DNA of 64,000 bases. Origin: Margaritifera margaritifera. Lineage: Eukaryota; Mollusca; Bivalvia; Unionida; Margaritiferidae. The DNA is taken from NCBI GenBank assembly GCA_029931535.1, contig JAQPZY010001660.1, forward strand, positions 1,513,001 through 1,577,000. Reading direction: 5' to 3'. Position 1 is the stretch's first letter. The number at the start of each line of letters is the position of its first letter. Below the pieces are notes generated by a model, which worked only from the letters and a program-made list of their open reading frames with translations, had not been told where the DNA came from and searched no databases. The translations under genes were made by a program, and so were the position numbers. Below, piece by piece: positions 3,301-45,300 of this stretch.

Positions 3301-6300
3301 GGTACTCTGATAACTCAAAGAGTTCATATGAAGCTGATACAAAATTCTAAATTGCATCTATGGGTGACCACTCCACATTACAAGTGCCTACCCTGGGTCC
3401 CAAGTATATTTTACTGTAACAGCCCTCAGTGAAACTGGACAAAAGGTATTAAATATGGTCAGACACATGCTATTTAACACAAAGTAGTGAAATTTAAATA
3501 CACAATTCCTTCATATGAACCATAATCAAAAACTTTAACACAAACTTCATACAGCCAATCTCTGTTTATCTGCCAACAGCAATGAAGATAAAGCCCATCA
3601 TAGCATAAGCTCTCCTGTACTTCAAACAGTCAAGTAATGAGACAATACTGTATATGATAAAATAATAAAACAATAAAGCCAACTGCAAATAAAATTACAC
3701 TTTGGAACAGACTTTAATAAACTGTCTAATTATATGATCATCCTCTGAACTTAGAGACATCTAAATATTCTACCTAACAATATGATAATTTTCTACATTT
3801 GTCAATGGGCTCAAATTTAAGACATATGCTTTATTTAAGAATTGTACACTTCATACCATAGTAATTTCCTTTCGTTGCAGTGTAAGTGCTGTTGGCTTGA
3901 AGTTTGCATCTGTTTCCCTGCATTTGAATGTGATACCATCTTTCTCTAGTTTCTTACTAAGTACTGGGAAGTCAAATCTTTCCTGAAAAATAAATATATT
4001 GGAACATAAATAAAGTGCTTATTTACATTAATAGGAAAAGAGAGGACAACTGTGGCACATTAAACAAAGTGACCTATGAGCAGTTTTTCATGGATTTTTC
4101 ATGAATGGCTATACTTATAAAAAAATGAAAAGTCATTAAAGTGACTTTGGGCAACAATTGCTTCAGTTAAAAATTTTCTTTATAACTGGAGTTTTTTTCT
4201 GCTCATGTTACAATTATATTACCATTTATACACAACAAAACACAGATTCAGTTAAGTTTTTATTTATAATTATAATGTTTGCCTAGGGGGACTGTCTGCT
4301 GCTACTGATGAAACTGTTTTGGTTCATTCTGTCAGTGAGTGATTCAGTGGTTACTGAATGGTTGTACAGAGGTCACAGCTGGGCTGTGAAACTCCCTGAC
4401 AGAATGTTATGGATAACCCTTGAGTAAAGTTTCTTCAGCGGAAACTGAAGGAGCCCAGTGGCAACTGGGCTGTCCAACGAAGGTTGGGATGACAGCGGCA
4501 ACTGTGTGGACTTCACTCAATGGGTTTAGTTTGAATATGCCATATAGCGCTGACATTAGATTCTTGGGTGAATAAACGGAATGGAATGAAGTAAATGCCC
4601 AAAGAGAACATATGTGCAGCAGATGTTGTCCCCCAAGAATGTAATAAGATGGGAAAGCCTTCAGTGTTCAATGAAAAGAAAAAAAAAAATGTTTGTTTAT
4701 ACAACAGTAGCATATCAACAATACTGGAAAAGAAAGGTATACATACATGAAGAAATAAATCGACAATGGCAAGAAACAGCATGCAATTACTATGAGTAGA
4801 CTGGTATTACAACTGCAACACCAGACTCGAACTTATGAAGACAAAGACACATGAACCGCAATAAGTCTATGATGTATGAAAATGTCAAATCTTGAATATT
4901 GCAATTATCAAGACAAAGTCACTTGAATTGCAAGAAGTCTATGATATATGTAAATTTAAAGTCTTGTGCGAATGAATGGCTGAGAGTGGTTCCATGCGTG
5001 CTGAAAACACTGCAGTGTTGCAAAGACATCTGATCATGTATGGGCCGCATTATGTGAAATAATTGTGTACCAATCTGAGTCGGACGATGGTGGCATAGCA
5101 TGAGAAAGATACATCTTGGAAGATGGCAATGATGAATCCGTGGTAAATTGAGAATGGAAACGATTCAATGATCACATCCAACTCAGGCAGGAAGCAAGAT
5201 GATCACATCCATGAAATGGGCAGAAGAAGACCCTGAGAATGCACTAACACCTCCATGAACTGAAAGCACTGAAAGCACATTTGGCAACGAAGATGACGGA
5301 TATGCACAAACGGCACACAAGGAACACCGGTATCACACGCGTGCAGAAACTCCACACATACGATGAATATAGAAACACAATGCACTACTTTGGAAAGTGG
5401 AACAACCGCAATCGCATGACATGACAAAGCACCGTAGAACTGGATCCAGAAAAACACAACCAGGATGGAAGAACAACGTGAATGGGAGACCTCCTATCCT
5501 TGTATGTTGAATGCAGAATGATCAGGGTCGCTGTGTATTGCTATCCGCATCCATGGCCATGGCTCTCTGCACTGCCCGGAGAGCACTGTGAGGAGTGCGA
5601 ATGTATCTTGTGTAACAATCTGAAGACCACTTTGATTATATAGTCTTCCAGCCGAGCCGCTGCCGCTGAAGTAGCCGCACCTATACGGAATGAATGACCT
5701 ATACGGAATGAATGGCCACTGAACCGATTAGTATCCATTCCCATCTTATGGTAGAGAAGTTGCATGTGATTAAGGAACACCACTCTTGACAACGCCTGAC
5801 CTGTAGCCGTAATGAAGAGCGGTGCATATGGCAGGGGCGATGAGCATCTCCTGAATTGCATAAAAGTCTTCAGAGCAGTGTATGGACATATAGCGCGACC
5901 TGTGGCATGAAACTGAACGGTCACGGCCTTACGGAAAGGGTCGGTTTTAGACGATTTTAACTTGAGAAAAGCAATTTCAAGGTGGAAGTGCACATCGCCG
6001 ACACAGAGATGAATGGTTGGATTGAAGGAATCCCGAACAGTGAATTCCCCACATCTCAGAAAGCCAAAGAAAGCAACTGTGCAGACAGTGAATAACAGCA
6101 AATCCGTGTGTGTGTCAAATACTCCTCCACGCAGAATTGTACAAATGCTTGTTAGGATATTGAATGTAATAGGCTGGCACAGTTTTTCAGGTGAACCTTG
6201 AGTTTTTTTGATGGCCCGGAGGATGGTGGCAAGACGAGGCAGATTATTTCTGTCTGTGGTGAATGGTGATTGCAAACCAGCCTGCATATACTTGAACCTA

Positions 6301-9300
6301 ATGCCACAGAGGCACAATTTTATTGTAGAATGCTTTAAGTTGAGGACTCTATTGCAATGTGTCGCAAAGTAGATTAATGTGTTCTCCGTAATAGCTGGCA
6401 AAAGTTGCATGGTTGAGGCAAAGCCACACGTCAGCATGAAGGTCCTAAACACGTTGAATGCAGTGTTGTAGGCGATCTGTGTCGCAGGGCTTAAAGACTG
6501 GTTCCACAAAATTTCTACCTCTGATTCCAGGTCCACAAGACTTCCGAGGGTGGGGGGCATGTGCTGGGTTGCAGATCCGCGTCCAGAGCCAGTGCATGAA
6601 ATTTCTGAAATTGAAGGCGGGACAAGGCATCAGCTGTATTGTTGATAACTCCAGGAATGTGTTTGGCAGAAAAATAAAAGTTACAAGAAGCCGCACACCA
6701 CGTAAGTTTACGCATTAATTTCATTATATGCATACATTTTGATCGTCCTTTTAGAAGTATATTCACCGTGGCCATATTATCACATATAAATATTATGCGT
6801 TTGCCTGCCCACTCTGCACCCCAAATAATAGCAGCAACAACAATGGGGTACAACTCCCTAAATGCCATAGAGAAATCATTCTCCACAGAAAAAATAATTT
6901 TAAGATCATCAGACCATGCAGATGCAAACCAGTGGGTTTTGAAGTAACCTCCATACCCCACCGCTGATGAAGCATCTGTGCATAATTCAAGTTTGTCCGA
7001 TGTTGTGGACTGATTGTCAAAAAACATAGAAACTCCATTCCACGTAGCCAGGAATCGGTGCCACATATATAGTTCCTCTCTGCAATTTGCATCAAAGTGT
7101 ACGTAATGATGGAGTTCCCTGACTTTGGTAGATAGTCGAATGAGGTATGACACAAACGCACGCCCTGGTAGGATAACACAGGTAGCATAATTGAAGTGGC
7201 CGAGTAACTGGAGCAGTTCTCGCTTGCGGACACTACGTTTGTTAAGAAAGTTTTTTATGCAGTTTGCAATACGTTCCACTTTATCCCTCGGTAGACGTGC
7301 TTGCATTTGATCTGAGTCCAGAATTATTCCCAAATATTCTAAAACTGTACAAGGGCCAACGGTCTTGTTTGGAGCCATGGGAATCTTCAATCTGTTGAAA
7401 ATTAAAGTCAACAAAGCCATAGTTCTTTCACCACATGCAGAAGGAGGATCTATTGTAAGAAAGTCGTCAAGGAGGTGCAAGATAACGTCAACACCGTAAT
7501 TATGTTTGGCTATCCAACAAATCGCCTGAGACAGGGTATCAAATAATTTTGGACTTGAACGTGACCCGAAAAGGGGAGGCGAACACAAACGAAATAGTGT
7601 CCTCTCCATTTTACGCAGAACAAGTGCCATTGCGAAGGCGCAATGGGAATCTGTTTGAAAGCATCTGAAATGTCAGTTTTGCACATAATAGCTCCCTTAC
7701 CATAACTCTGAATGATTCGGATGGCATCATCGATCTTTACGTAGCTTAGAGAGCATTTTTCCTTGTCAATAAGTTCATTGATGCTTGCATGAACGAGGTC
7801 GCCATGGGGAGATGACAGGTCAATGATAAGTCTCTTCTTTTTTTAATATTTACCTTCCGCGATACCGACCGGACTAACTCTGTAATTTGGATATGGTGGA
7901 GATGGAAAAGGGCCCAGCATGAAATCTTTGGCACATTCCTTTGCTAATAACTGACCCACAATATTCGGTTGTTTAGTAGCAGAAAGCAAGTTTTTGCACT
8001 CTTTTGTAGGCAAGCGAGTTTTATGAACCATAGTGTCAAAACCATGTTTCAGACTGGAAGACAAATATTGAACGAAGTCCTGATCAGGATGATGAAGGAG
8101 TTCAAGCTGCAATGTTTGATGTCAATGGGGGTGGAAGCATGTGGTGAGAAAGTTGGTCAGATTTGTTTCGTCTTGTCTGGCACTGATTTGCGATGGGTAT
8201 GGACGTTGCGTGTACCAGTGCTGGAAAAACTGTGCAAAGGGTTCTTTGGGCAGGTGGCCGCCCCATGCGTTTTGTCCCTGCACTGATTGCAGGCATGTAA
8301 GAATTGGCAAGTAGTTCGGTGGCAACCCCGTCTGGAATTGAAATTGTTACAAAGTTCCTTCCCCTCAACCATCTGTCTAGGACGGCCGTACTTGTCAATA
8401 TCCGTTTGCCTTCTGTTGGCCATATTACCAACGGGTGTGGCAGTGAACGTTTTTTGTGGGCAAAAGTCAGTTGGGTGAGTAACAGAATTGCAGATGTCGC
8501 ATGTTGTTGTTTTGCGGACTCCAATCAATAGCTGAAGAGCTGTCTGGTCCCTCAGAGCCCAATTGACTTTGAGTTTGTAGTCACGCAGGGCAACAGCCGC
8601 CTGACTGGAGTAGACGTTGTGATAGTCATAGAATATGTCCCCATAGGCATTGGCAATTTTGATAATGTCGGCCTCGTACATGTCCAATTCATGGCGCCTG
8701 TTGGGGTAAACAGAACAGATGATTCTTTTAAACTTCCCGAAAGCCGTTATGAACTCACTAATACTAAGCCGCTTAAGTAACCGGGGATCATTCTTCCCAG
8801 CCTTGTCATCTTAATTTGATAGATCCGATTCAAAGTGTGGTAGCAAAAGAGTGGCCAGATTGACGTGCTTACCATTGATTATCTGTTTCCGCTGGATTTC
8901 GGATACCACGTCGATAGCTGGAAGTATTTCCGGCGAAACTCCCTACGACTGCATCAGCCGATTGATCGGCGTCGCAAGCTGGGCTACTATCGGCGATGAG
9001 AGATGTATTGAGTCGTCTAAGAATAAATCCCGGAGAAGACGCCTGTTGTCGTGCCAGGATGTGAGTAATGGAGTTATTGAGGTCCACGATTGAACGCTGA
9101 ATGGAGTGGATAGAGGTCATTATGTTGACGTTAGACTCTGTGTTTACATCTAGGGCGGCCATGTTGGAACTAGTTCCTACTTCCGGAACATTGCACCGCA
9201 CTGCTGTTGCTGCTACATTGACTTCCGCCAAAGTGATTCCCTCTGCCGAATCATCACGAACAATTGTCGCACAATGGCTACGTCGACGTGGACTTGAATG

Positions 9301-12300
9301 TGGATCGAGGGATACAACTTCTTCTTCAGACCGAATTGTGCTTGGTTGCGATTGAGTTGGGTTGTTCGTCTCTTGTCCTGTCAAACGATCAGCAGGCCGT
9401 GAACTGGTGGAAGGGGCATTATCCAAGTATAACTGTCTTAAGGCATGCTCAGAGAGAAGAGCAGACACTTTAATGCCTATCGATTCAAGTTTCTGTTTTA
9501 AACGGAGAGTAGTCCAGTTGAATGGATTGTCCAAGTCGTATGGGACTGACCTCCGACCTCTCGAAGAGCGCGACGTCATTGTTTTCAGACAAAGGAAAGG
9601 CCTCGAGTGTCCAACGAATGGTAACGATAACTACTGATGAATTCACGGAATGTGAAGAGGAAACAAATGGGGAATTGCAGATCTGGTAAAGAAAGCCCGT
9701 GTTGTGAAAATAAGCAAGAGATGCACACGCGAATAAAAGTGTGAAGCGCAATTCGACAGAATTATGCGTGCTGTCGCTCTCCACTCCAAACAAGAACAAT
9801 TGAACAAAGACGCTGCACGTGACAGCTGGGAATGCCTTGATTGGCTGGTGAGTGATGTATTAATACAGCTCATGCATATTAATGCGGACTATTTGCAGGA
9901 ATGGTAGTGAATGGGTCGCCTATTGCTGTGTATAAACTATGCCTAAGCAATCGCATAAGCAACCACAGTCAGTACACACCAGGGTAAGATCAGCATATAC
10001 TATTACCACAGTCACTATACACCAGGGCAAGATCAGCACATACTAATGTCACATTCAGTACACACCTGGGCAAGATCTGGGATACTATTACCACAGTCCG
10101 TACACACCAGGGCAAGAGCTGGATATACTATTACCACAGTCAGTACACACCTGGGGAAGATTTGGAGATACTATTACCACAGTCAGTACACACCTGGGCA
10201 AGAGCTGGATATACTATTGCCACAGTCAGTACACACCTGGGCAAGATCTGGAGATACTATTATCACAGTCTGTACACACCTGGGCAAGATCTGGAGATAC
10301 TAATACCACAGTCAGTACACACCAGGGCAAGATCTGGATATACAATTAACACAGTCAGTACACACCAGGGCAAGATCTGGAGATACTATCACTACAGTCA
10401 GTACACACCTGGGCAAGATCTGGATATACTATTACCACAGTCAATACACACCTGGCAAGATCTGGATATACAATTACCACAGTCAGTACTCACCTGGGCA
10501 AGATCTGGATATACTATAACTACAGTCAGTACACACCTGGGGAAGATCTGAAGATACTGTTACAACAGTCAGTACACACCTGGGCAAGATCTGGATATAC
10601 TATTGTTACAGTCAGTACACACCTGGGCAAGATGTGGAGATACTAAAACCACAGTCAGTACACACCTGGGCAAAATATGAAGATACGCTTTGTTTCATAT
10701 AAGATGTTATATAGTCTTGCTCCATATGCCATACGGCTTCTTGAGCTAGGCTTGAGCTGATTTATGCTCATTAGCCTTCAGCCAATAAATTTCATTAGTT
10801 TATAATTTTTTTCAAATCTAAAACTCTTTTGTTTTCTACATGAATGCCTGAGAATATCTTCACTGGATCTGGTAGCAAAATAAAAATCATAAATGCAGGG
10901 TTAATGAGGTGGATTACATAAATCAAATATTCTTTTTAAGAAGAGTACTGTGAGCATTAAATTAAACACCTGCCCCATGTTTAATATTCTTCTATGTAAG
11001 CACTAACAGAGCATGGTTCACTCTTGAGATTATTCACCAACAGGTCACAAGGACGTTGACATTTGTTCAAACGTCAAGCCATGCAGCCTTGAATGAAACT
11101 TACTGTGCAGAAACCATTATTTCTTGATTAGACTTACCATGACCTTTGACCTTTATACTCAAAATCTATAGGTTACTTTCTTAGCCTAAGTGCAAGCCAT
11201 CCACAAAATTTAGTCAAGGAACTTACTCTAGAACAAATGTCACTGTGCAAAATCCATTTTGCTTTAAGTCACAACAACCTTTACCATTTAATACCAAAAT
11301 CAATTGACCTCTTCCATAAGTGAAAGCCCTCCACAAACTTTGTTAGTATCGTCTGGAACTAAAGTTATTAGGCAAAAATACATTTTTCTTCTCTCAGTAA
11401 CAGTGAACTTGATCTTTGACCCTAAAATCAATAGGTTTCTATCTTATCTATAGTATAAGTCATCTGTAAACTTTGGTGAAGGTATAATGTAAAGAACTTA
11501 AATTTCTGTGTAGAAAACATTCAAGTCACTGTGACCTAGACCGCTGACCTTTTGAGCTACCTTGATCTTTTATTTATATACCTTTTACAGAATTTTAACA
11601 TCTTTACCTTTATATTCTATATTGTTGTACAACATGTTCACATTTATTTGGAAGGGTTTATCTTCCTAGGGTTTATGTGTAATTCTTCTTTGTTACATTT
11701 TTAAAATGTTACTTTTAGTTGGCAACATATAGCCACTATTGTGCTGAGGTGCCATTAAGCACTGAAGAGGGTTGGGGCCAACACGCAGCCTTGCTTGACT
11801 CCAGTGGCGACTGGGAACGGTAATGATGCCTTTCATGACCATGACATGGGGATCGACATCAGATACCGGACTGAGGGCAACCTCTTCAATTTGAGGAGAC
11901 TACAGGCAAAGACAAAGTTACAGGAAGTGACTGTTCGTGATCTCCTATTTGCTGACGACTGTTCCATGAATGCTAAATCTGAGTCTGACATGCAACAGAG
12001 TATGGACCATTTGTCTTCAGCTTGTGACAACTTCGGTCTCACAATCAGTATCAAGAAGACAAAGGTGATGCACCAACCTGCACCAGGAAAACCATATGTA
12101 GAGCCTACCATCACAGTAAATGGCCAAACCCTCCTGGCAGTCAACAAGTTCATCTATTTCAGCAGCACACTGTCATGTGCAGTCCACATCGATGATGAAA
12201 CCAATGCCAGAGTTGCTAAAGCAAGTGTGGCCTTTGGTAGACAATGCGCAAATGTGTGGGAGCACAGAGGCATCAGTCTAAAAAAAAAAACGAAGGTCTA

Positions 12301-15300
12301 CAAAGCCATTGTGTTGCCAACCCTGCTGTATGCTTGCAAAACCTGGATGGGGTACAGATGCAATGCCAAGAAGCTGAACCATTTTTATATGAACTGCCTG
12401 AGGAAACTGATGAGGATAAGATGGCAGGACAAGGCCCAGACACTGAGGTTCTCACATGGGCAGGCATTCCAAGCATCCACACTCTGCTGATGAAATCACA
12501 GTTGAGATGGGCAGGACATGCCACCAGGATGTCAGAAGAGTGACTACCAAAGAAGATTTTCTATGGAGAGCTGAAGGAAGGAAAGCGTTCTCAGGATGGT
12601 CAGAAGAAATGCTTAAAAGATAACCTCAAATCATACTTGAAACACTTCAACATTGACCCTGAGTCTTGGGAATATCTTGCACAAGATTGCTCCGCCTGCT
12701 GACTTTGAACTTAGTAGAATTGCAGAGGCAGTGCAGAAGCATGAGCAGCGTAAATCTCAGAACTGTAACATGTCCTCTATTGATCAAGCAAACCCAAAGC
12801 GGCATCTCGTGTCAAGTGTGCCACAGACACAAACTGGCCTGATAAGCCACTCATGTACTCACAGAAACCAAACCAGTTAGTGATGTCTTGGTCATCTTCG
12901 AACTTGAAGGACAAACAACACAACACAAACACTACTACATACATATTTGACCCAAAAATCAATAGGCTTCTTCCTTACTCCAAGTACAAGCCATCCACAA
13001 TGTTTTGGTTTTTGGTGTAGAAGTAAAGTTATTGCACAGAAAAACATTTTTCTTCTTTCAGTCACAGTCATCTTGACTTGGACCATTTGACCCCCAAATT
13101 GACAGGCTTCTTCTTACTTCAAATGCAAGCCAGGTCTATGATGAAGAACTAATATTATTTTGCAGAAACCATTTTTCTTCTTTCAGTCACAGTGACCTCA
13201 ACCTTTGACCTTTTGACCCCAAAATCAATAGGCTTCTTCCTTATCCCAAGTGCATGCCATCCACAAAGTTTAGAAAAGGCAGATGTTGTAAATCTAAATT
13301 TATTGTGCAGAAATGAAAAAGGTAATAGATGTATGAACAGACATCATAACAATATACTCTATGCCTTTTGATGGGCATATAAAAAGGAATGCCTTTGGTA
13401 TATGTTAACTGAAACTTTTAACTTAATCGTATAATATATTTTCAAAAATTAATGGATAGATGGATAGCTTCCATGTGTGTCCCTCTCAAATTTAACTCTG
13501 CTCTAATTTAATCAGCAAAATAAACTATTATATAAAAACTAATGTGATTTTAGAAGATATTTATCATGGATGTGACATTACTGTATTGTCATATGTAAAT
13601 TATAAGATATTCTCATCCAATCAGAAAAAGGATTGCCAAATTCTACAGACTTTGCTACATTATGAATGCAGTATCTTTACAATGCTTCCAATGATCCATG
13701 AAAGTCCAATGATCCATGAAAGTCCAATGATTCATGAAAGTCCAAGGATCCATTATGCAGGATTGTATTCCAGCATCAAGTAGGCCTGATCATAATAAAT
13801 GAATCCTGATCCAGTCCTCTGCCTCCACTCGTTAGTCACAATGAACAATGAACACGAGGTTTCAAATCTGGAGAATGATGGTCCGTTAGTTTACATTAAT
13901 AATATACCTGATGCAAATGGATAAATGACAACAGTACTATGTAGCAGACAAGCTAAATTTCTTAAGCATTAACACCCACCTATATCCCCTATATTCAAGC
14001 ATTTGTATATAATTATGAATCCAATAAGTTATAATTACACATGATCTTTCTGTGTGATGCTAAAACAATGCATTTTTGACTCCTCTATCATCATCAACAA
14101 TACCACTATCATTATCACTATCAATCAGTCTCAAAAGTAACTTTGTTCCTTGTAGTGGTGGTGGTGGTGGTCACAGCTGTAGCATAAGCAATCAAAGTAG
14201 CAGTAGCAGTAATAGTACTAGCAGCAACACAAGATGTGCCATATTTGACATAATACCTTCACATGCCTTAATAAGTGCACACTCCTCTTTTTGTCACAAC
14301 TCACATACAAATTATCCATTTCCAAACACATGTGATGGGGACACCATGACATCATCTGTGTCTGATTATGATGATGAGCTTTAACTTCATTAAAATTTAC
14401 CCAAATTATAATTTTTAAAGTTCACAATGTGGGCATTATGTCAACTTTCATTTGGGCACTGGTGGGTTGAGGGGTGGCTAAATGTATAGTCAACTTTCAG
14501 TTGAACACTAATGGGTGAAGGATAGCTAAAGGTACAGTTAACTTTCAGCTGAACACTGGTGGATGGAGGGGTGGTTAAATGTCCAGTCAACTTTCAGTTG
14601 AGCACTGGTGGGTGGAGTGGTGGCTAAATGTACAGTAAATCAATTACACTGCAATGTTTATCATTCCTTGTGACCTTGGTCTTTGACTTGTGACCCATTG
14701 CTCAGTAGAAATGGTCAAGGTTCCTTGTTTAACTTCAGTGTCACATCACAAGCCAAGGGTGGAAGCAGATGTAATCATTCTAAAGAGAATGTTCATGCTG
14801 ACACCTCATAAATACCAGAGGGACACAGGGTTGAGATAAGTGACAACAAGTCCAAAATTTCAGTTCACTACATGTAGTGAAGTTGGTTGCAAATTTTCTA
14901 CGAGGTAACTTTACTGTTTATTCTGGACTGTCTGGCAAGCCAATGTGTTTCTACATGTATATATGTTGTTCTGTGTGTTAGTACACAAAGAATATCTGTG
15001 ATAAAACTAATCAAGATGTGAATCCAAATGTATGTTGTTCTGTGTGTCTGTACACAAAGAGTATCAGTGATGAAACTAATCAAAATGTGAATCCAAATGT
15101 ATGTTGTCCTGTCTGTTAGTACACAAAGAATATCAGTGATGAAACTAATGAAAATGTGAATCCAAATACAAATTTACGTTCAGTTCATCAGTTATTTCTA
15201 ATGTTTGCTATGGCTATCAATGTTCAGTCCTTGTAGCAAATACTTTCTGCTATTAAAAAAGAATTTAACTTCCAACTCTAGAACAAAAAAAGTACACAAA

Positions 15301-18300
15301 AAATTGCAGTTTATCTAATCTATATAACTTACCCCAGCTAATGCTAGTACTTTGGTCAAGGTAGGGGTCATCTGTAAGGCATGTTTAGCTCTAGTGACAG
15401 CCACATAACTTACCCAAGCTAATGCCAGTGCTTTGGTCAAGGTAGGGGTCATCTGTAATGATTGTTTAGCTCTAGTGACAGCCACATAACTTACCCCAGC
15501 TAATGCCAGTACTTTGGCCAAGGTATGGGTCATCTGTAAGGCATGTTTAGCCCTAGTGACAGCCACATAAAGCAGGTTACTCTCATCCGAGTTGGGATCT
15601 CCTGAAGAAAAAAAACCATTATTTTAAAACATGATTTCTTTGGGGGCAAAAAAGGAACATGAACTCCATACCCATGCCACCCATGACAACCTGAAACAAA
15701 TTCTTAGTTATTTTTCTCACTTGATTCCAGGCTGTATGTAAGTTCTGTAAACTTCTGAAAGCCTTCATATATTTAGTTTTGGGTATGCAATGGGAAAAGT
15801 ATGATGTGAATATTCACGTGTGATGATTTTAATTTAAATGTATTTAAGTTGATGGGTAAAAAAATTAAAAGACAAAGATTTTACAAAGTGTACAACTTCA
15901 AAACCATATTGATTTATGTCTTTGTACACTAAATCATTTGAAAGAACATTTCTTAATAGCGGTTTCAATTGATTTTACTAAGTTTGAATGAAACAAAAAT
16001 TAAACCATACCTTGCACACATTTTAATTAGATTTTAACATGAATATGTTTGATTTCAAAAGAAAAAGTTACAAAACTAAATATATCTTGAGTGCTTCAAC
16101 CCGAAAAGATATAACACTTGTTGATATACCATATTTTGGTGTCTATAACATGCACTTTTTATATCTATATTTCTTAGTTTCAGGAGTGAGTGTGCATTTT
16201 ACAGCAGCAAAAAGAAAGAAAATAAATTTCAGGTCGATCTGACAAAAGGATCATGGCACTTAAACTGCTTACACATGTCACATTCACTTCTTGTGAAATA
16301 TTATATCTGTTGCATTGTAACTAAATTGTTTACTAGTCTTATTAAAGAATTAAACAATGCTTACAAACCTTGATAGTCTTGTTCTTTGTTATGTTTATGT
16401 TTATGTTAATAAACTAATTTCATTTCATATCGGGCCACAGGTGGCCGAGTGGTCTAAGGCACTCAACTTTACAGATCACTCACATCTCACCTCTGTCCAC
16501 GTGTGTTCAAGTCTCGGCTCGACCAACATGGGTATGTGAGAAAGCTTGCCAGTAGCTTCCCATGGGTCAGTAGTTCTTCCCGGATTCTTCTTCCACCAAA
16601 TATACTGTCTGCCATGTATAGCCTATCATGTGATGAAAAGTGGGATTAAACCCACAAAACCAATCAAAGCCATGTATAGCCTATCATGTGCTGAAAAATG
16701 GCATTAAACCCACAAAACCAAACCAATCAAAGCCATGTATCATGTGCTGACAAATGGTGTTAAACCCTACCAAACCAAACCATCAAAGCCATGCATAGTC
16801 TATTTCATGTGCTCAAAATGGCATTAAACCCTACCAAACCAAACCAAACCAATCAAAGTCATGTATAGCCTATCATGTGCTAAAAATGGCATTAAACCCT
16901 ACCGAACCAAGCCAATCATTTCACTTCATTGTGTAGCTTTTTATTCTGTGAATTAACTGGAAATACATATGACAGGTAGCTTGTTGTTCTGTCATATTTA
17001 CATGAAAGCTGTGCAAAGTACCACACTGCAGAAGAACAAATATGATCACTTAACCCATAAATGTTCAATATTTAATAATTGTTGATGTAATCAATTTTTT
17101 TTTCATTTATTAATTTCTTTATTGGTTGAATTGAAGTATAATATTTAGAATTCATGTTAATGTTCTCATCTGAGGCACATTATGGGGACATCTTTTTTGT
17201 GACTATGGATTGTCTGTTATGGTAACATTGACACATATCATGAAACGAAATAAGTTAACGTATGAAATTGGCATACACTTTTTTTTTCTTTGGAAAATAA
17301 AACTGGTTTTTAGTTTTATTTCCCAACTTAAATCACAGTATTCAACATTTCTTTTGGACTATACAGTGATCAATGCTTCAATGATTCAGTGTGGTCTTTT
17401 CAAGGAAATCAATGCCAGCTAAAGCTTTGATGTGCTAAACATAATTACAATGCTTTGTCTAGTAAATTTGCAATTTATTTACTTTTCTTTGGAAAATAAA
17501 CTGGACTCTTTGTTTTATTTTTCATCTTAAATCGCAGTATTTGATACTTCATTGTGACAATACAGCTATCAATGTTCAATTGAGTTGGCTTGGTGTTTTT
17601 AAAGGTAATGAGCGTCGACTAAAACTTTGATGTACCAAACATAATTATGATGCATTGGCTTGGTAAATTCTAGCTTGGACACCAAGATATATTTCATAGG
17701 TGTCATGCAAGTCCAAATAAGTATAAATACTGGACCCTGAAGTTTCACATCGAATCTCATGTTTGACCTTGAATCGGAGTGAAATAACAAACTCATACAC
17801 TGCAAAAGACAAGTTAACCATCATTGCCTATAGAAGTACATAGTAACAGAGTCACTGGGAGGGAGTTCAATCTACAAGAGTCTTCTGATAGGGAATGGAG
17901 AAGAATGAAAGAAAGACTGAAGAATATGCTGAGGACAAAACAAGCAGACAGAGGGAAAACTACCAGGTATCCAGAAATAGAGAGAGGAGTCTTTGAATGG
18001 GTGATGGATAGAAGAAGACAGGGAATCTCAGTATCCACCACAGAGATTCGCTTTCAGGTAATTCTGATCGCAAATAAGAAGAAAATATGTGACTACAAGG
18101 AGTGTGTGAGCTGGGTATATGCATTCTACAACTACATTGTTAATCAATTTGGAGACACACACATATAACCCAGAAGCTGCCTGAAGTTTATGAGGACAAA
18201 CTGCTTGAATTCCAGTGATTCATCATTAAACAGCACAAAAGATACAACTTTGAGTTGAGCCAGATAGGAAATGCCTACCAGATGCCTTTGACATTTGATC

Positions 18301-21300: not shown

Positions 21301-24300
21301 GAGTGCCTGAAAACTGACCTAAACCCACAACTTAACTGCCCAGACAGACAGAAGGACACAAATAACTATATGCCCCTACCATATATATAGTGAAGTATAC
21401 AAATCCTAATTTATCTGCAAAATCCGACAAGCATAATTGTGCACAGTGGCAGTGCAATTGCTGAAATTTGTAGAAAAATGCCACAAAGCCTATTTATCAT
21501 TATAAAATTCAGGTTGCAGATGAAGAAATACCTCTCTGTAAATTTTGAGGAAATATCATGCATATTGTTTCGTAATTTTTATTAAGGCTTTTAACACGGT
21601 CACAATGTTTGTCTATATTTGGACAGATTACACATATGCCTTTTTCAACAGATTCATGGCTACACTGTTGACTTAATGTAATCAAAATGGATACGCCACA
21701 TACTTAATGCAACCATCGAAGGCAGCTGGACCATTCCATCCATATTGATGGCAGCTGCATGCTGTCCCACACTAAAGTCATCCCCAAGTCTAACTGTGCT
21801 GAATTCCAGGCCTTTTGCCTTGTGAGCTGTGCTGAAGATGATATCTGCAAATGAATCCAAAAATGAGTCACATTTTAAGAATATTGGTACAGACAAATAT
21901 GATTTCAAAACATACATGAAAGACATAATTATTTTGTAAATAAATCAGTGCCTGATACATTAAAACCTGTCTTGAGTGACCTGTTATGAGTGACCACTTG
22001 TCATTTATGACCAAAATCATCATACATGGATCAATTTTATGATATAAATGCACTAATGTGAGCGACCAAATGCAGAATGCGACCATGATTTTTAGGCAAA
22101 ATAAGCAATTTGACACTGCTATGAATGACTGCATCACAAAAACAGAAATAAATACCACTGACCTTTATTTAATCCTTCGTAACCACAACCGCTTAGGAGG
22201 GTCTGCAGGCAGAGTGCAGATTGTTCTCAACAACACTGCTATGAGCAACCAGCATTGCAAAAGCAGAGATAAACACACAGACCTTTATTTAATCCTATGT
22301 AAACACAACCACTTAGGAGGGTTTGTTCTATATGATAAAAAAAAAGTTAAGTCTGGCTACAGATTTGCTTAAGACTGGCTACCGTTTTGCTAAAGTCTTC
22401 AGGTCATGCAGGTAGCATCTTATGCTACTGACTGTAAACCAGACTAAAGTACATGTCACTAACCCCCAATGAAGTGTCAAAGTCATGTAAATCCCAATTA
22501 TGATTAACCATTCCTTCTTCAAAGGGAGCAGTCAGGGACTTACATAGTCAAATGAACGGTTCATATTGTTTCCTTATCTTTTGTGAAAAACCGCACTATG
22601 CCGATAATGTCATAATGAGAAATATTCGGAAAGGGCTTCTATGTAGCGATCAAATACATCATTTGTCATTGGAGTCAATCCATAATGCCTGGGGTGAATG
22701 AGGTCTGTCTTTAATAAGTGATTACTGTTTTGGGGGTTTGATTGGCATTGCAAAAGGTTTATGTTGTTTGTTGCTTTTTTGATGTTACAGTTATTAAAAC
22801 ACACACACCAAGCCATTATCTGTTCACCACAGTGCAGTCGGTTACACTCTCTGAAGGCTTTGCTTATTGAGTTAATATCTTTATGTTGTTGGTGAATTAA
22901 GCCTTTGACTTTTGTCTCAAGATACATTTATTTTGTTTCTGGATGGGTTAATGTCTTTTGCTTTATTGGGACATATATATTCCATATTTACCCAAAACCG
23001 CTACAGTGTAATTCATACACAGGATAAATAAATAAATATTACTTTAGCTAATTTTGTAATTCATATGCTAATACATGCACATGTGATCTTCAAATATAAA
23101 TGTGAATGTTTTATTATAGATGTACATCTTGATTGCTACATAAAATTATTTTGGGATGAAATGAATGCAATATTTTAAGAAGAACTATAAATAAAGAATA
23201 AAATGTATGTACAGTAATTGTTGTTTTTTTTAATTCTTAAGCCCTGTTGAATTTTAACCTTGAAAACTGGTCTTCTTGTGCAAACCTGTTATGAGAGACC
23301 ACTTGGCTTGAGACTGCTTTTTGTTGGAAGAAGGGGTGGTCTCTCAAGACAGGTTTTACAGTAGTGGCAACATCCATCTGCTATGGAATTAATTTAGATT
23401 AACAATTATTAACTTTTTTATGAGCTAACATCCTTACAAAATGACACGTTAACAACAAAATCCAATAATGTCCTATTGACAAATTTACAAAAAACATTCA
23501 CAAATACAAACTTTTAATATATGTATTCATTTCAAGAATGATAATCATATTTCTACAAGATTACAATACATCTCACCAGATTAACAAATACAACTCTTAT
23601 ATACTGTGGCAATAAAACTTTGTAGTAATTAAAAAAATCAGTCTGGAGAAATTGGTGAAGAGGTTATAAAAATTTGGGAGCACATCTCATGTTATATTTG
23701 AATTTGTGTTATAACAAAGTGTCTTATAGTGGGTTTCCCTCTACAGTCCAAACTCGTATGATGGCAAACTCCCACACACAGAACTTAAAATAACCAATTT
23801 TTAAAAAATAAAATCCATAAGATCAAAATATGGAATATGTGTTGTGAATAAAAAAATTAAGATTTTTCTAATTAGGCTGAATTAGGCCATTTCAAAGAAA
23901 GAATGTTAGATATTTTCAAGGTTGACTGAGAGACTTACCATCAAAAGATGTCATTTCTTAATAACGTGTTATGTTATATAAAAGCTTGCTAATGAACTAT
24001 ACATATCCTTCCTTCAACTATCCATGAAATTAGTAAAATAAATCAATAAATTCAGCATCTAAAGGTTATCATAGATAGGCTAATTGTTTTGACTCAAGAG
24101 GTTTCAAGATGCTTCTACCAAAACAATGCAACTTTATGCAACATATACTGCAGTTGTTGTATCACAGAGGACCCCGCCTGCTACAATTTGTTCAGCAGCA
24201 CCTTAAACTGATGAACTTTGTGGAATCAAAAGAAGGTGTATCCAACAATGACAGGCAACTGACAAAATGATGTAAAATGTTGGTAATCATGCAAGAGTTC

Positions 24301-30300: not shown

Positions 30301-33300
30301 TAAATAAAAACAACAATTTTATCAACTGAAAATTTAGGGGCTTCTGTTGTTGTCTGCTGAATATTTGCTTTAAAGTCGCTGACATCTGCTCGTGTCATGT
30401 ATTGTCATGGTTGTATAATAGATGTGAGGGACTAAATTTCAAGACAAAGGCAGATGCATTTATGCATGATTTAGCAATAAATCAAACTTGTATTAGTTTG
30501 AAAAGAAATTTTTTAGAAAAAGCGGGGGAATTGTAAGAAAATACAAAATAATAATGTGTAATGAGAAAAGCTGAGTACGAGCCAGATCTGGTTGGAACAT
30601 TCCAAATTGCAGCTCTTGTGAGTACACTAGATAATCAAACATGTTAGTATTTTTAAGGGAAAATATGATGGCTACTTGAGGCATTCTAGTGCTAATCTTG
30701 AATATAGTATTTGATTTCTTTGCACACACAGGGAATCTTGTGTGGCTGATTCTGGATTTTGTTACAAAAAAGAGTCTATGATAGCACTGCTTATATGAAG
30801 TAAATAAATACTAAATAAAATTGTGAAGACACATACCAGCTTGAGTCAAGTCCTCAATTGTTTTGTCAAGAATCTTGTTGGTAACACTGGGAAAAGTCAT
30901 GTGATAAGTTTTCACTATTTTGATCTTGCCAAGAAGTTCACTGTCAAATGTTTTGTTGGCAAACTGTTCCAATTCAGCAAAAGACTGGAAAGTCTTAATG
31001 AAATTGTTGGAAATGCATCTTTTGTCTGAAATATGAAGCAAACAGACCTCATTACAGCAAAGAGAGCATTGCAGAAGCAAAGTTTTAACAATCAACCTAC
31101 ATGAATTAATCAATCTACATACATTGTATATAGTTAACGTATCTATCTACATTGTACCTGAGTATCTACCTAAAATTATCTATCTACCTAAACTTCCTAA
31201 ATACCTTCCTATCTACCTGTGAATGTACTTTTATTCAATGGTTACCAATTGTCTTGTACATCATGGTTGCTACAAACCCAATGATATATTAAACATCTGT
31301 AAAAATTAAAAATCTGTAAATTTATTGTCTTGGCTGCAATAATGTCACTTCAGTCCTAGTAACATATGAATGAACAGACTCTATGACTTTGACCTCTGAC
31401 CATTTAACAGCACCATTCCTCTTCTAATATGTGACAGGAGGTGTATGGAAACCTAAGTTGGCACTAGAATTTCAATTATCTTGTGTATAAAAAAGGGCCA
31501 TACTATGGAATTATCCATTCCAGATCTGGCTCCTATTTTAATTTAGTCACTACCCATTATTAACTAGTATTTGTTCTCATAATTCTTCTTTTTCTCTGAA
31601 ACTTTTCTTTTCAAACTAACAAAAGTTTCATTTATTGCTAAATTATGTTTATCTGCATGTTTCTTTCTTAACAAGAGTACTGTGAATGTCACATTATACA
31701 CCCACCCCATGTTTAATAGCCCTCTATGTTGATAACTGATATTTTTGCATATAAACCATTTTTCTTCTTTCAGTGACATTGACCTTTGCTCTTTTGATCC
31801 CAAAATCGTTAGGGTTCTTCCTTAGCCTAAGTGCAATCCATCCACAAAGTTTGGACCAGGTCTGTGACATAGAACTAGTTATTTTGTGCATAAACCATTT
31901 TTCTTCTGACTGGCATAATCTTAACATTTGACCTTTTGACCCCCCCCCCCCCCCAAGCAACAGCCTTCTTTCTTACCCCATGTGCAAACCATCCACAAAG
32001 TTTGGTGAAGTACGTCTTGTAAAATTAATGTTATTGTGCAGAAACCATTTTTTTAATATTTCAGTCACAATGACCTTGACCTTTTGACTTTAAAATCAAT
32101 TGAGTTCTTCCTTACACCACTTCCAAGCCATCCACAAAGTTTGGTAACCATTGATGATGTTGATAATGGAGAACTCCAGTTACTGTGTGGAAACCATTTA
32201 TCTTCTTTCAATCAGCAACCTTGACCTTTGAACTTTCCAGACAGAATTCTATAGGGTTCTTCCTTACCCACAAGTGCAAGCAATCCACAAAGTCTGGTAA
32301 CTGTAGATGGTGGAGAACTTGAGTTATTGTGCTGAAACCGTTTTTCTTCTATCTGTCACAGAGACCATGACTATTGACCTTGAAATCAATAGGGTTCTTC
32401 CTTTCCCCAAGTGCAAGCTAACCAACAAATTTTGGTAACTGTAGATGGTGGAGAACTCAAGTTATAGTGTGCAAACCATTTTCCTTGTTTCAGTCAATGA
32501 CCTTTGAGCTTCTGAGCCGAAATCGATAGGGTTCTTACTTACACCAAGTGTAAACCATCCAAGTTTGGTAACTGTATATGGTGTGCAACTGAAGTAACTG
32601 TGCAGAAACCAAATTGGTAACAGACAGATGGATGGATAGACGGACATCATCATAACATAACACACTCCACCTTATGGCAGGCATATAAAAATTGAATCTC
32701 TTGCACGCACTGCTACAACCTCAAAAATATGCTAACTACCTGATGTCAGCAAATTCAACACAAAAATCTGCACAAAACCAGCCCCTTAGTTTTCAAATGC
32801 AAAATATGTTATTTCTATCAAAATGAATCACACTCTGAAAATTTTGACTGCCATTGACAATTTGGCTATCGCTAGAATCAATATATGAAAACAGACTGTT
32901 TACCCCAGAAAACTAAACAATGAATATTGTGAACTTGACCTGTGATGCATGGATCCATCATCCCCAAGGATGTGCCATGTACACTGGTGAATCTGGTTAG
33001 AAGTCAAATGCTTATCCACAGACACACAGTATAAGCTGCCCCCACCTCCCCCTAAAACTGACCACTATGACCTTGACCCCTGACCTCCACACCATTAGTG
33101 ATATTTATAGCCCATGGCAAACAGCTATACTGTGTGTGATGTCAAATCAGTCATGACAAAAAAAGATAATACTGCTCCTTGTGACCTTGACTTCTAAGGC
33201 TATCAATCCACAGGGGTATTCCGCCCATCCCCTCCCAATATTTTATCGGCAAAGTCTAATGATGATACCCTCATGAAAACAGGAGATACTGCCCTTTAAA

Positions 33301-39300: not shown

Positions 39301-42300
39301 TGAGATCAGAAAAAAGTTTAAATACATTTGAAACTACTGTAGTATCATTTATTTTTGTGGGTCTCAATTTTTGTGGTTTTGAAAACAAATTTTAGTGGTA
39401 CTTAAATTTGTGGTTTTGCCTGTCAAAGTTTGCATATTTGTAGGTATATAATTTAGTAGATTAATCTCAACAAATACCTCAAATAAAGACCACAAAGAAA
39501 CAAACCTATGAGGACAACAAATGATGGTTGCTTTCAGGTTAGAACAGTACTACCACATGTATAAGCACAAATCAAACACCTGTCAAGATAAAACACTTAC
39601 ATTCAACATCAAAGGGAGCTGACACAGCCACCAACACTAAACTAATCAGTTATTAAAGTACATGTGTATGATCTCTTCCTTAAAACACTGTCCATAAAGT
39701 TGCACCATCAATTACTTTCTGACAACCATAGGATTAACACAGTGGCTTAAAAGTGGTAAAAATCAACTTAGATCCCCGTTGGTTTGGATAATGTCATCAT
39801 TCCATATGCAAACCAAACACGTGACCAGCTGCCCCTTACTCATTGCAATTAGCAAGTTGTGTCAACATTTTATGTGTTCAGAGCCCATCAAAATGCGAAG
39901 AAGCTAACTAAACTGAAAAACAATGGAATCACTCCTTTGTTTGAGCCTGCCTCATGTAGGAACCATCTTCAATCACTAGACTTTACTTAAAAATTGTCAA
40001 TGAAGTCGATTGATGCTGAATAGATAATTGTGGATCACATGAAAATGTGTGAACGATTGAACCTAATTATCTGTGGCTTTGAGAATACTGGACTTGTTTA
40101 ATTCAACAATTTCAGGATTATTTACCTGAAAAACATTTGTGTGTACCAGCCGACTTGAGTGACGCAATGTTGATTCAGTGGTTTTGTCCGAAAATTAGTG
40201 AAGAGTGAGAGTCAATACTCTGCCATAATTAGTGTATATACACAGTGTTTCATTAGTAATTGTGCCTCAAGCAATAGTTTTAGTATTTTACAGTTATTTT
40301 GTTCATTGGGATTAACCATGCATGGATAAAATGAGATGAGCTTTCACGAGGATTTAAATTTTTCGACAACAATTTCACCTGAATGAAGAATTTATTTGAA
40401 TAAGTATTAAATCTAATTTTCATTTATGGTATTATTTCCTATTCTTTCTTTCATTTTCAGAAATAACAGTGTTTGAATACCTTATGCTTTTTCTCAATTC
40501 TCTCTATCCTTACTTATCTTACAACATATCAATTTAAGGCAGTGAGTTGAAATTACAGCTACCAGACCGTTTAGATACGTGTGCATTTAAATAATATAAA
40601 AGGATGAAAATAAAACAGACACTTGTAAAAGCTAATATTTTTAACCAGATTACAGAAATAACATTGATTTATCAAATAGCTTTGTTAATCTCTAGGAATG
40701 AAACACAGTAAACAAGAAGAGGAGTGGGGGCTTCTTTATCCTATGTGGCTCATTTTTCATTGGGTCTTTAAATTCATGACTCAAGACAGCAACAAAATCC
40801 ATGAAAATTGGTACCCCACGAAAATTAGTCATACTACAGTATTAGAAATTCTAAACCTATACAGAATACTAAACCTATTAATATACACAGAGAAAGATCT
40901 GACTATAATACTTGAGAAATGTTACATATATACAGAGCGAACATAAAAATAATAAACGTCCAGAATGAAGTCTGTTTTAGAACTTTGAAATTGGTTCTTT
41001 CATATCAATGTTGGTTCTCCATGAGAGTATAGGGTATTTTTTAATTGTAAATTTTAATATTCTGGTGTTCATTAATTTAAAACTTTTTTTTATATAATTT
41101 TTACTGGCAAATTAAATGAATAATTTGATAATAATAATAACCTTATTCTTGTAACATTGGCCACTGGCCCAAATTATATTTGTACATCCAATCTGGTACA
41201 TACATATTGTGATATTATAATTTACACAGCAATACCTGGATCTTCAATGATTTTGACAGTAATAGTACAACATTATGCAAGCTATTATAATTATAATTGT
41301 AATAATTAGCATCACTGTAGACATTTCAAGGATTATCTCTAGTTGCCGTATATTGGACATTTCAAGGATCATCTAAAGTTGCCGTATATTGGACATTTCA
41401 AGGATTATCTCAAGTTGCCGTATATTGGACATTTCAAGGATCATCTAAAGTTGCCGTATATTGGACATTTCAAGGATCATCTAAAGTTGCCGTATATTGG
41501 ACATTTCAAGGATTATCTCAAGTTGCCGTATATTGGACATTTCAAGGATTATCTCAAGTTGCCGTATATTGGACATTTCAAGGATTATCTCAAGTTGCCG
41601 TATATTGGACATTTCAAGGATTATCTCAAGTTGCCGTATATTGGACATTTCAAGGATCATCTAAAGTTGCCGTATATTGGACATTTCAAGGATTATCTCA
41701 AGTTGCCGTATATTGGACATTTCAAGGATTATCTCAAGTTGCCGTATATTGGACATTTCAAGGATTATCTCAAGTTGCCGTATATTGGACATTTAACAAC
41801 AAAGTGATATTCATCTTCTCTATCTGTACAAAAAGGACAAACTTTTTGTATATATGAAATATTTAAAACAGCAAAAATTATTTCATATCCTGTTATAAAA
41901 CTGTAACTTTTCCATTAAATATAAATCTCCATTCAATTCTTGCAAGAAAATATCTCTATAGCTCTGTTTGAATACCGTAAAAAAACAAGATGTTGTCAAT
42001 AATTTGATCAGACACCTGGAGCCAAAATTTGATTTATTGTCGAGTAATCATTTTCTGGGGAAATGAGTTAGACACTTTTGGACCGGACAACTAGAGGATT
42101 TTATTGGGCAACCAGATTTTACAGTCTGGATGTCCTGTAGGCACCCATATTTTTTGAAAGCTTTTTTTCCCACCCCCAATCTGTCACTAGTTCAGGCTTT
42201 TATGCAGAATATTATATTCCTTTCCTCTATTTATGTACAATATGATGGTATTATCCATTCTGTGATGTAGGAAATTCCAATTCTTTACTAGCCCTGCTTA

Positions 42301-45300
42301 TGCAAAAGCTCATGTTACCTGGCTTGCCATGTCCAACCAGAGTCTTCTCCTTGATCTGCTTACATATTTCTAGGCAACAGGCTGCAACATGGGCAATTTC
42401 TGGCCCAAAACGGAAGGACTACAATAATAGAATATTGAACCTTTAGGAAGGACTACAATAATAGAATATTGAACTTCAATAATAGAATATTGAACCTTTA
42501 GGAAAGACTACAATAATAGAATACTGAACCTTTAGGAAGGACTACAATAATAGAATATTGAACCTTTAGGAAGGACTACAATAATAGAATACTGAACTTT
42601 TAGGAAGGACTACAATAATAGAATATTTAACCTTTAGGAAAGACTACAATAATAGAATACTGAACCTTTAGGAAGGACTACAATAATAGAATATTGAACT
42701 ACAATAATAGAATATTGAACTATAATAATAGAATAGGAAGGACTACAATAATAGAATATTGAACCTTTAGTGTCTTTCACCTAAATATAGGAAAATACAA
42801 ACTGCTCGATTTATACAGAGGAAGCAAAAACTCTCTTACTCTAAACTAACAATAAACATAAAGTGATATTAATGATTGTAAATAAAAACAAGGTTAATAG
42901 AAGACAAAGTAAATCATAAAAATACATGGGAAGAAAATCCAATGAGTGCATAAATGATCTGCAATGAAAAAGATCAATTTTTTAAACATAGTTCTTAATG
43001 TTACAAATTTACTTTCAAAGCAATGTTGTTTTGGTTAGATTAGAAAATTTGATGGTTTTCAATGCAGCCTCAGGTATACTTGATATTTTCAATAAATAAA
43101 CAAAACACAGTCAAATATATTTTTTTGAGAAATGAACTGACAACTTAAGTTTTATGGCAATGTTCTAGAATTCTGAGTTTTAACAGTTTCTTTATTATCA
43201 TATCTGGCTTACCAACATGGGAAAAACAGAAATATAAATGTGTCCATACAAGATGGATGCCACCACAAACACAATGAAACTGAAGAAATCTTGGTGCAAT
43301 ATGTAAGGTTTAAGTACTAACAGATGGCATATCTCAATAAAATTTTGAAGAAAAAGGTGAAAATCAAACTTTACCTAAGTCTTATTAATATGAAACCTTA
43401 GGCAAAATTTGATTTCCATATATTAAGTTCTTCAAAAGTTAATGAGCAGAAACCAAGGTCATGATACAAAGGAAATTTTTCTAAGTCAAACAGAGGCTTT
43501 AACTCAATCAAATTATAATGGAAAAGGCTGAAAAACCTAGACATGTGTCCATGTGCCCCTGCCAATATAATGCAAATCAAGGGTTAAGTTCAAAGCCAAA
43601 CGGGAATCATAACTCAATACAAATAAAAATCCAACATTTACTTAACCTAGGTGTTCTTAATATAAAGCCTCATATCAAGTTTGGTTTCAATCGACAAAGT
43701 CTTTCAATAGCTACCGAGCGAAAACTGAAAGACAAAGTTCCAAGTCAAACAGAGGGTCATAAATCTGTAAAATTTGCTAGAAAAATGTGAAACCGAATTT
43801 GACTGGTTTTCTTCATGTAAAATCTCGTACCAAATTTCATGTTGATCCATTAAGTCCTTCAAAAGTTATTTTGTGGAAACAAAATTTGTGATGGACATGA
43901 CAGGATGGGACGTGATGTGAAAGAAGAGATGGACATGGGTAACACTATATGCCCCTCCACATATATGTCTGGGGGCATATAAAAGTTGACCTCCACACAT
44001 ATGGCTGGGGGCATATAAAGGTTGACCTCCACACATATGGCTGGGGACTTATAAAGGTTGACCTATGTTTTCTTAATATAATACCTCATACCAAATTTGG
44101 TTACAATCTATTGAATCCTACACAAGTTATTGAGCAGAAACAAAATTTGTGATGGGATCGATGAACAGACGTGATGGCTTAACAGACATGTGTAATGCTG
44201 ATGAACACTTTAAAGAGTAAGACAGGAACATAAAAAAAACTGGTTGAATCATACCAAAGGCATGTCTGATCTTTACATAATACTACCTGATCAAATTAAA
44301 TGGCTAAACTATGACAGTGACAATTCTTACTTGTGTCAGGTAGAAAATGGTATCCGCCTGTACCTTTTCCATGGCATTGACTGCACCACGGAAAGAATAG
44401 ATCTGCTGGTGAGGATCTCCTACCAAGATTTTACCTTGGGGCTGGGACAAGAGTATGTCAGTGATAGCTAAATTATGAGAAAAGAAAAATTCAATGAAAG
44501 ACTGAATGATATCCTATATTAAGTAGAGATGCTACTACCAATGACCTAAAGTTGCATCTAGACAATGTTTTTACAACATTGCTGCAATAATTTAAGAATG
44601 TTATCATGTCAAAATTTTATTATAATTAACAAAAACTGCCAAACAACCGTGCCTTGAATAATGACGAAAATATTATGCATTTTTTCATTTTTGAGGGTAT
44701 CAATTTTCATGGTTATGCAAAAAATGACAGTTTTGTTGGTACAGTTCTCCCTCTATTTAACGCACTTCATTATAACATGATTCCGGATATAATCTGGTAC
44801 TGCTATGAACCCTTGACCAAAATGTAACCAATGTATGACAATTATGGGTTGAAAGAAAACAAGCTTAGTGTTGTATCTTTATTTCCTTTTTAAAACACCA
44901 TTATTTGACAACAATTTTATCATTCCCACTACTGTGGTTCAGCACATAACGGTGTTCTTACAATAACGCAGTTCCATACATAACATGGTTGGCAGTTATG
45001 GACCCCAACTATCAAATTATAACAAGGGAGAGATGTACTTAAATCATGGGTTGGTGAAGGGGTCCAATAATTTCACTGCATGGATCATCGTGTGTTGGGT
45101 CTTTCATGGTTTATAACAACCATGAAATCCATACATATTTTAAACTACAAATCGTAGTGAATTCAAAGCAAATAGACCAAAAAAACCCCAATGTATGAGA
45201 ATATACTCATAATAATTAAATCCAACATCCATACCCTATATAATAGATATTATTAAATATACCAATGCCAGAGTATCTCAAATAAATTTAAACTGTGGGA

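Follow-up and report, generated by a model that had tools for sequence, protein, structure and literature searches.

In laboratory tests of how one of several equal splice donors is chosen within an exon, Carranza, Shenasa and Hertel used designed minigenes in transfected cells and reported that, where two identical CAG/guaagu donors 52 nt apart were flanked by 365-nt introns, the upstream donor alone was used (Carranza et al., 2022; PMC9225289). The same report describes a preference for the upstream site in human exons that have long introns on both sides and near-equal donors, and a partial preference genome-wide over all classes, the upstream donor being taken in 60% of near-equal cases (PMC9225289). 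The rule was derived in human cells and need not apply to mussels. A splice signal can also be multiplied by ordinary local duplication, as described for a potato RdRp gene in which a tandem genomic duplication across an intron-exon boundary copied the acceptor side and a new intron arose (PMC4974935).

The window analyzed here, a stretch of 64,000 nucleotides from the mussel Margaritifera margaritifera, contains a gene of the F-box DNA helicase FBH1 in which the end of the exon encoding helicase motif VI is present three times in tandem, each time with its own donor. The mussel exon is like the minigenes of Carranza et al. in carrying identical GUAAGU donors within one exon subject to exon definition, but it is natural and has three donors 81 nt apart between introns of 6 and 11 kb. 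It is like the potato gene in that a tandem duplicate spans a splice boundary and takes the splice signal with it, for which ordinary local duplication is enough, but here it is the donor side that was copied twice, without any acceptor, and as the unit length is divisible by three the outcome is alternative donors instead of a new intron. Compared with known FBH1 (PDB 9xzj), which it resembles in sequence, in its motif VI exon and, for an abalone relative, in fold, the mussel gene has three motif VI coding segments and three donors instead of one. No description of a triplicated in-frame donor was found in the literature searched. The locus is a natural counterpart of the laboratory splicing test, with three equal in-frame donors in one exon of each of two sister genes. 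Use of the extra copies would mean that splicing varies the number of a core helicase motif, and their disuse would illustrate how a gene can be protected by exon definition when its splice site is duplicated.

Successive FBH1 exons run along the minus strand of the window, and the features that matter for the argument are the following.

21704 to 21844, minus strand: preceding FBH1 exon, which we take to be the motif V region; the intron to the motif VI exon is about 6.1 kb
15495 to 15601, minus strand: motif VI exon as bounded by donor 1 (codes (R)...LALAG), 107 nt, with the acceptor ttcttcag just above 15601 and matches to Potamilus and Sinanodonta FBH1
15489 to 15569, minus strand: unit 1, 25 amino acids and GTAAGT
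15489 to 15494, minus strand: donor 1, GGG/GTAAGT, phase 0
15408 to 15488, minus strand: unit 2, 25 amino acids and GTAAGT
15408 to 15413, minus strand: donor 2, TGG/GTAAGT, phase 0
15327 to 15407, minus strand: unit 3, 25 amino acids and GTAAGT, continuing into the intron
15327 to 15332, minus strand: donor 3, GGG/GTAAGT, phase 0
3857 to 3982, minus strand: following FBH1 exon, beginning in phase 0; the intron from the motif VI exon is about 11.35-11.5 kb
42418 to 42770, minus strand: second boundary array of the same gene, spanning the acceptor of the SFRFGPEIA exon and about 7 exon bases, about 10 repeats

Exons were located with the proteins of relatives, including by tblastn; the boundaries given for the array, the donors and the neighboring exons were checked in the sequence, and several other exon ends are approximate. 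A 15-kb frame of the window gave no match among solved structures, while the translated exon matched 9xzj_F, 'F-box DNA helicase 1' (E 2.1e-4), and the 35 amino acids before donor 1 are 97% identical to the F-box helicase of Potamilus streckersoni and 94% to that of Sinanodonta woodiana, the two top matches among bivalve FBH1 proteins. By sequence match along the helicase exons the gene is FBH1, in agreement with the original prediction. The UvrD-type C-terminal helicase domain with motif VI was recognized by PF13538 (2.1e-12) and PF13361 (5.9e-10), both above the cut-off, and the first large exon of both FBH1 genes described below has an F-box-like match (PF12937, 22.5 and 23.9 bits) that is just below the cut-off of 24.3 and stops at the exon end, with 38 of the 47 profile positions covered. 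Motif VI contacts ATP in SF1 helicases. In the predicted model of the abalone relative (mean pLDDT 83; best PDB match 9xzj_F, TM 0.77 by query), one unit extends from the last part of helix 543-553 through arginine 555 of motif VI and the strand 556-562 to helix 564-572.

The array lies at the end of the FBH1 exon and consists of three head-to-tail 81-bp units on the minus strand (15327-15569). Tandem Repeats Finder reported it at 15324-15570, with a period of 81, 3.0 copies, 91% matches and no indels, and translation of the minus strand showed one shared open frame through units 1, 2 and 3, so that the triplication, the common frame and the GTAAGT at the end of each copy are as originally predicted. 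Each unit is made of 75 bp of exon followed by GTAAGT, and the splice signal and intron bases are thus inside the duplicated unit. Nine of the 81 columns vary among the three units (8 differences between units 1 and 2, 4 between 1 and 3, and 6 between 2 and 3), which makes them non-identical copies, and the first six intron bases are the same at all three donors. A pyrimidine-rich acceptor precedes the exon start at 15601, the first bases complete an arginine codon begun in the preceding exon, and the exon would be 107, 188 or 269 nt long with donor 1, 2 or 3, respectively. Each of these lengths stays in phase with the next exon, which begins in phase 0 at 3982. A switch to donor 2 or 3 would hence add 27 or 54 residues without a frame shift, which bears out the prediction of a choice free of frame penalty, and the interval 15333-15601 that had been predicted is exactly the exon if donor 3 is used.

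It had also been claimed that motif VI is normally present once, and among the 120 homologs listed of 766 it was found once in 117, in three not at all and twice in none, a strict pattern accounting for 101 and a looser one for 16 of the other 19. In the mussel gene the number of segments would be one, two or three depending on the donor. Comparison with related species, which the original prediction had suggested, gave one motif VI each in the FBH1 proteins of Potamilus and Sinanodonta, both of them annotated proteins and thus gene models. Searches with the triple exon, limited to candidates of about 550-1750 and 149-472 amino acids and to the 7997 with the most shared words, yielded 3 and 4 proteins, and in no case did the alignment cover more than 51% of the query. 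The unit closest to the Potamilus protein is unit 3, with 1 amino acid change in the gene of the window (gene A) and 0 in a second gene (gene B); the corresponding counts are 1 and 3 in unit 1, and 5 and 6 in unit 2. An FBH1-like protein of Mya arenaria (P0035) has an exact 28-residue repeat, 29 residues apart, that ends (TQ) where the mussel exon ends, which may be a further repeat at an FBH1 exon end or an artefact of the gene model.

The second gene lies in tandem with the first. FBH1 protein P0002 matches two exon series on the window's contig, gene A at 1513193-1600781 and gene B at 1642817-1742963, and the gene B copy of the motif VI exon, about 128 kb from that of the window, is 92% identical over the exon region in a same-genome search. 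Its start is three bases shorter than in gene A with the frame kept, its array has three units with all three GTAAGT present (donors at contig positions 1656787, 1656706 and 1656625) and all frames open, and the unit 2 signature QS...A...W is common to both genes. Because the same three units with the same individuality occur in both, the array predates the duplication of the whole gene. On these sequences the array is old, not very recent, as one alternative of the original prediction had it, and an assembly error is unlikely. The alignment of the two gene regions consists of 39 collinear blocks in a chain, which cover 51.4 kb of gene A with 11.6% substitutions, the helicase exons of the two genes have pS 0.083 and pN 0.044 (16 exon blocks, the first large exon and the array left out), and the 752 residues of exon blocks in each gene contain no stops after trimming of one block that ran into the intron and had an end stop in each gene. 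In a phylogenetic tree genes A and B cluster with each other, apart from Potamilus plus Sinanodonta, with moderate support (82/84).

The branch leading to gene B is about twice as long as that to gene A (0.11 vs. 0.049). One FBH1 exon (window 30838-31026, contig 1683615-1683803 in gene B) has 19 nonsynonymous and no synonymous changes between the two genes, as if under diversifying or relaxed selection judging from these counts, and its counterpart is absent from the Potamilus protein P0001.

How the array arose can be approached from its edges, where TTAT occurs both in the exon sequence leading into unit 1 (CTTTATGTGG) and in the intron that follows unit 3 (AGTTATATAG). We infer two rounds of tandem duplication of the exon end and the six intron bases next to it, with this shared microhomology as the probable route. 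The second round would have followed the first, units 2 and 3 sharing ACC in gene A, and the array was in place before the FBH1 gene as a whole was duplicated in tandem, three units having been kept in both genes. The window is rich in minisatellites (29 arrays with a period of at least 15, covering 9.2%), and by circular shift of a set of 24 FBH1 exon ends, some of them approximate and one of them a coding-region end rather than a splice site, two lie in arrays compared with 2.2 expected. A special targeting of exon boundaries was rejected on this count, and the location of the array needs no special cause. The second boundary array of the gene, at the SFRFGPEIA acceptor, reflects an event of the same kind but has spacings of about 21-55 bp, mostly 34, and is therefore out of frame; its length by Tandem Repeats Finder is 289 bp in gene A and 741 bp in gene B. 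What is distinctive in the motif VI array is that it is in frame and kept, not its position at a boundary.

Whether the extra copies were retained for their coding capacity can be judged from the divergence between genes A and B. Six of the 81 sites of unit 1 are different in the two genes, four of these changes being nonsynonymous, compared with two sites in unit 2 and three in unit 3. Units 2 and 3 together differ at 5 of 162 sites (3.1%; 2 nonsynonymous, 3 synonymous; pN 0.017, pS 0.073), compared with about 5.3% in the other exon blocks and 12.2% of 45,610 aligned noncoding columns. Noncoding windows of 162 columns with five or fewer substitutions number 118 of 4169 (73 when one very similar tract is taken out), or 2.8%, a figure to be read as a proportion rather than a formal P value since the windows overlap, and the binomial P of 4e-5 against the noncoding rate is not used as the main figure because noncoding divergence is uneven. 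The difference between unit 1 and units 2 and 3 gave a Fisher p of 0.19. In 50-base steps, the stretch of low divergence reaches from about 15501 to 15352, and substitutions are higher on both flanks.

Across the two genes no donor and no YVAVTRAK segment has been lost (six of each), and in 8000 neutral simulations at the observed rate the four extra units kept frames, donors and octapeptides in 0.14% of runs, or in 4.2% at half that rate. A comparison of synonymous and nonsynonymous differences between units, also suggested originally, did not reveal selection, as the units within gene A differ by 6 nonsynonymous and 3 synonymous changes, which is the neutral ratio. With 10 simulated neutral changes, frames stayed open in 0.75 of runs and frames together with all donors in 0.34, so that open frames and donors alone mean little. 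Open frames as proof of coding and the between-unit ratio as proof of selection were both rejected on these grounds. Of the 43 arrays in the gene A region, 11 could be matched, by the criteria used, to a counterpart close to the collinear position in B, and in three of these 11, the motif VI array among them (247 vs. 244 bp), the length agrees within 5%. The adjacent array, with a 69-bp unit about 160 bp downstream, has three copies in A but one in B. Low divergence of this kind could also result from a short gene conversion between the two genes, and one noncoding tract of 0.8 kb is at 3.4% divergence, but any conversion tract at the array would have to be short given the more diverged flanks and the differing 69-bp array. 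The divergence data are thus moderate evidence, not proof, that units 2 and 3 were retained; of the original alternatives, a very recent duplication or retention of coding capacity, the former falls and the latter is upheld to this extent, units 2 and 3 being less diverged than 97% of the noncoding windows.

The reading that we favor, at about even probability, is a duplication of microhomology or minisatellite type over the exon-intron junction that was tolerated in frame, with donor 1 dominant and the longer isoforms minor. Given the long introns (6.1 and 11.35-11.5 kb) and the six equal bases, most splicing is expected from donor 1 (15494), and by analogy with the published rule we infer that it pairs with the upstream acceptor over the shortest exon (107 nt) between the two long introns. 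Donors 2 and 3 would give minor transcripts, expected at a low level, and their longer products would be tolerated because each unit has an open frame and a length divisible by three. The output of three isoforms that had been predicted is accordingly graded here as possible and, by the published rule, probably minor. Several points speak against this reading: unit 1, the only unit that would then always be coding, is the most diverged between the genes, which disfavors donor 1 as the sole functional donor; it is unit 3, not unit 1, that is closest to the Potamilus protein; and the published rule is a human one, with a partial preference genome-wide. Clearly less probable, though a serious contender, is that donor 1 alone is used and units 2 and 3 are intron that has not decayed or has been evened by short gene conversion. 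The neutral ratio between units, the chance retention of frames and donors, the single-copy gene models of the two relatives and the upstream preference of equal donors (PMC9225289) all agree with this, and the equally similar noncoding windows and the 0.8-kb tract make conversion plausible; it is countered by the low divergence of units 2 and 3 (by the binomial as by the empirical share of 0.028), the rarity of full retention in the simulations at either rate, and the flanks and 69-bp array that leave room for a short tract only.

It is rather unlikely that all three copies are translated in both genes and have been kept since before their split, giving isoforms with one, two and three motif VI segments; if true, donor choice would be a natural switch of helicase activity. 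More doubtful still is that donor 3 is the main or only donor and that both FBH1 proteins have three motif VI segments in a row, of which only one could sit in the helicase core. Such a protein would account for units 2 and 3 being at least as conserved as the other exon blocks, for unit 3 being nearest to Potamilus and for exactly three units in both genes where few arrays have a counterpart of the same length, but the equal-donor rule (PMC9225289) goes against it, none of the 120 listed homologs has two copies and, judging from the relative's predicted structure, an insertion of 54 residues would break up a packed domain. An assembly error is very improbable: the published M. margaritifera assembly was, according to its description, made from PacBio CLR and Illumina reads (PMC10189783), but the units are non-identical and the three-unit array with QS...A...W recurs at a second place with 92% exon identity and 12.2% noncoding divergence.

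Other features of the window were also recorded. Within the 11-kb intron, open reading frames at 5541-9630 (minus strand) resemble a DIRS-type retroelement, a label that we presume from motifs, and the three of them that were scanned matched no Pfam family above the cut-off. A reverse transcriptase fragment lies at 11759-12490 on the plus strand (PF00078, 28.7 bits, just below the cut-off of 29.6). Two further minisatellites contain long open frames, one at 9959-10551 with a 43-bp unit, about 17 copies and a frame of 187 amino acids, and one at 41320-41857 with a 36-bp unit, about 13 copies and frames of 154 and 178 amino acids.
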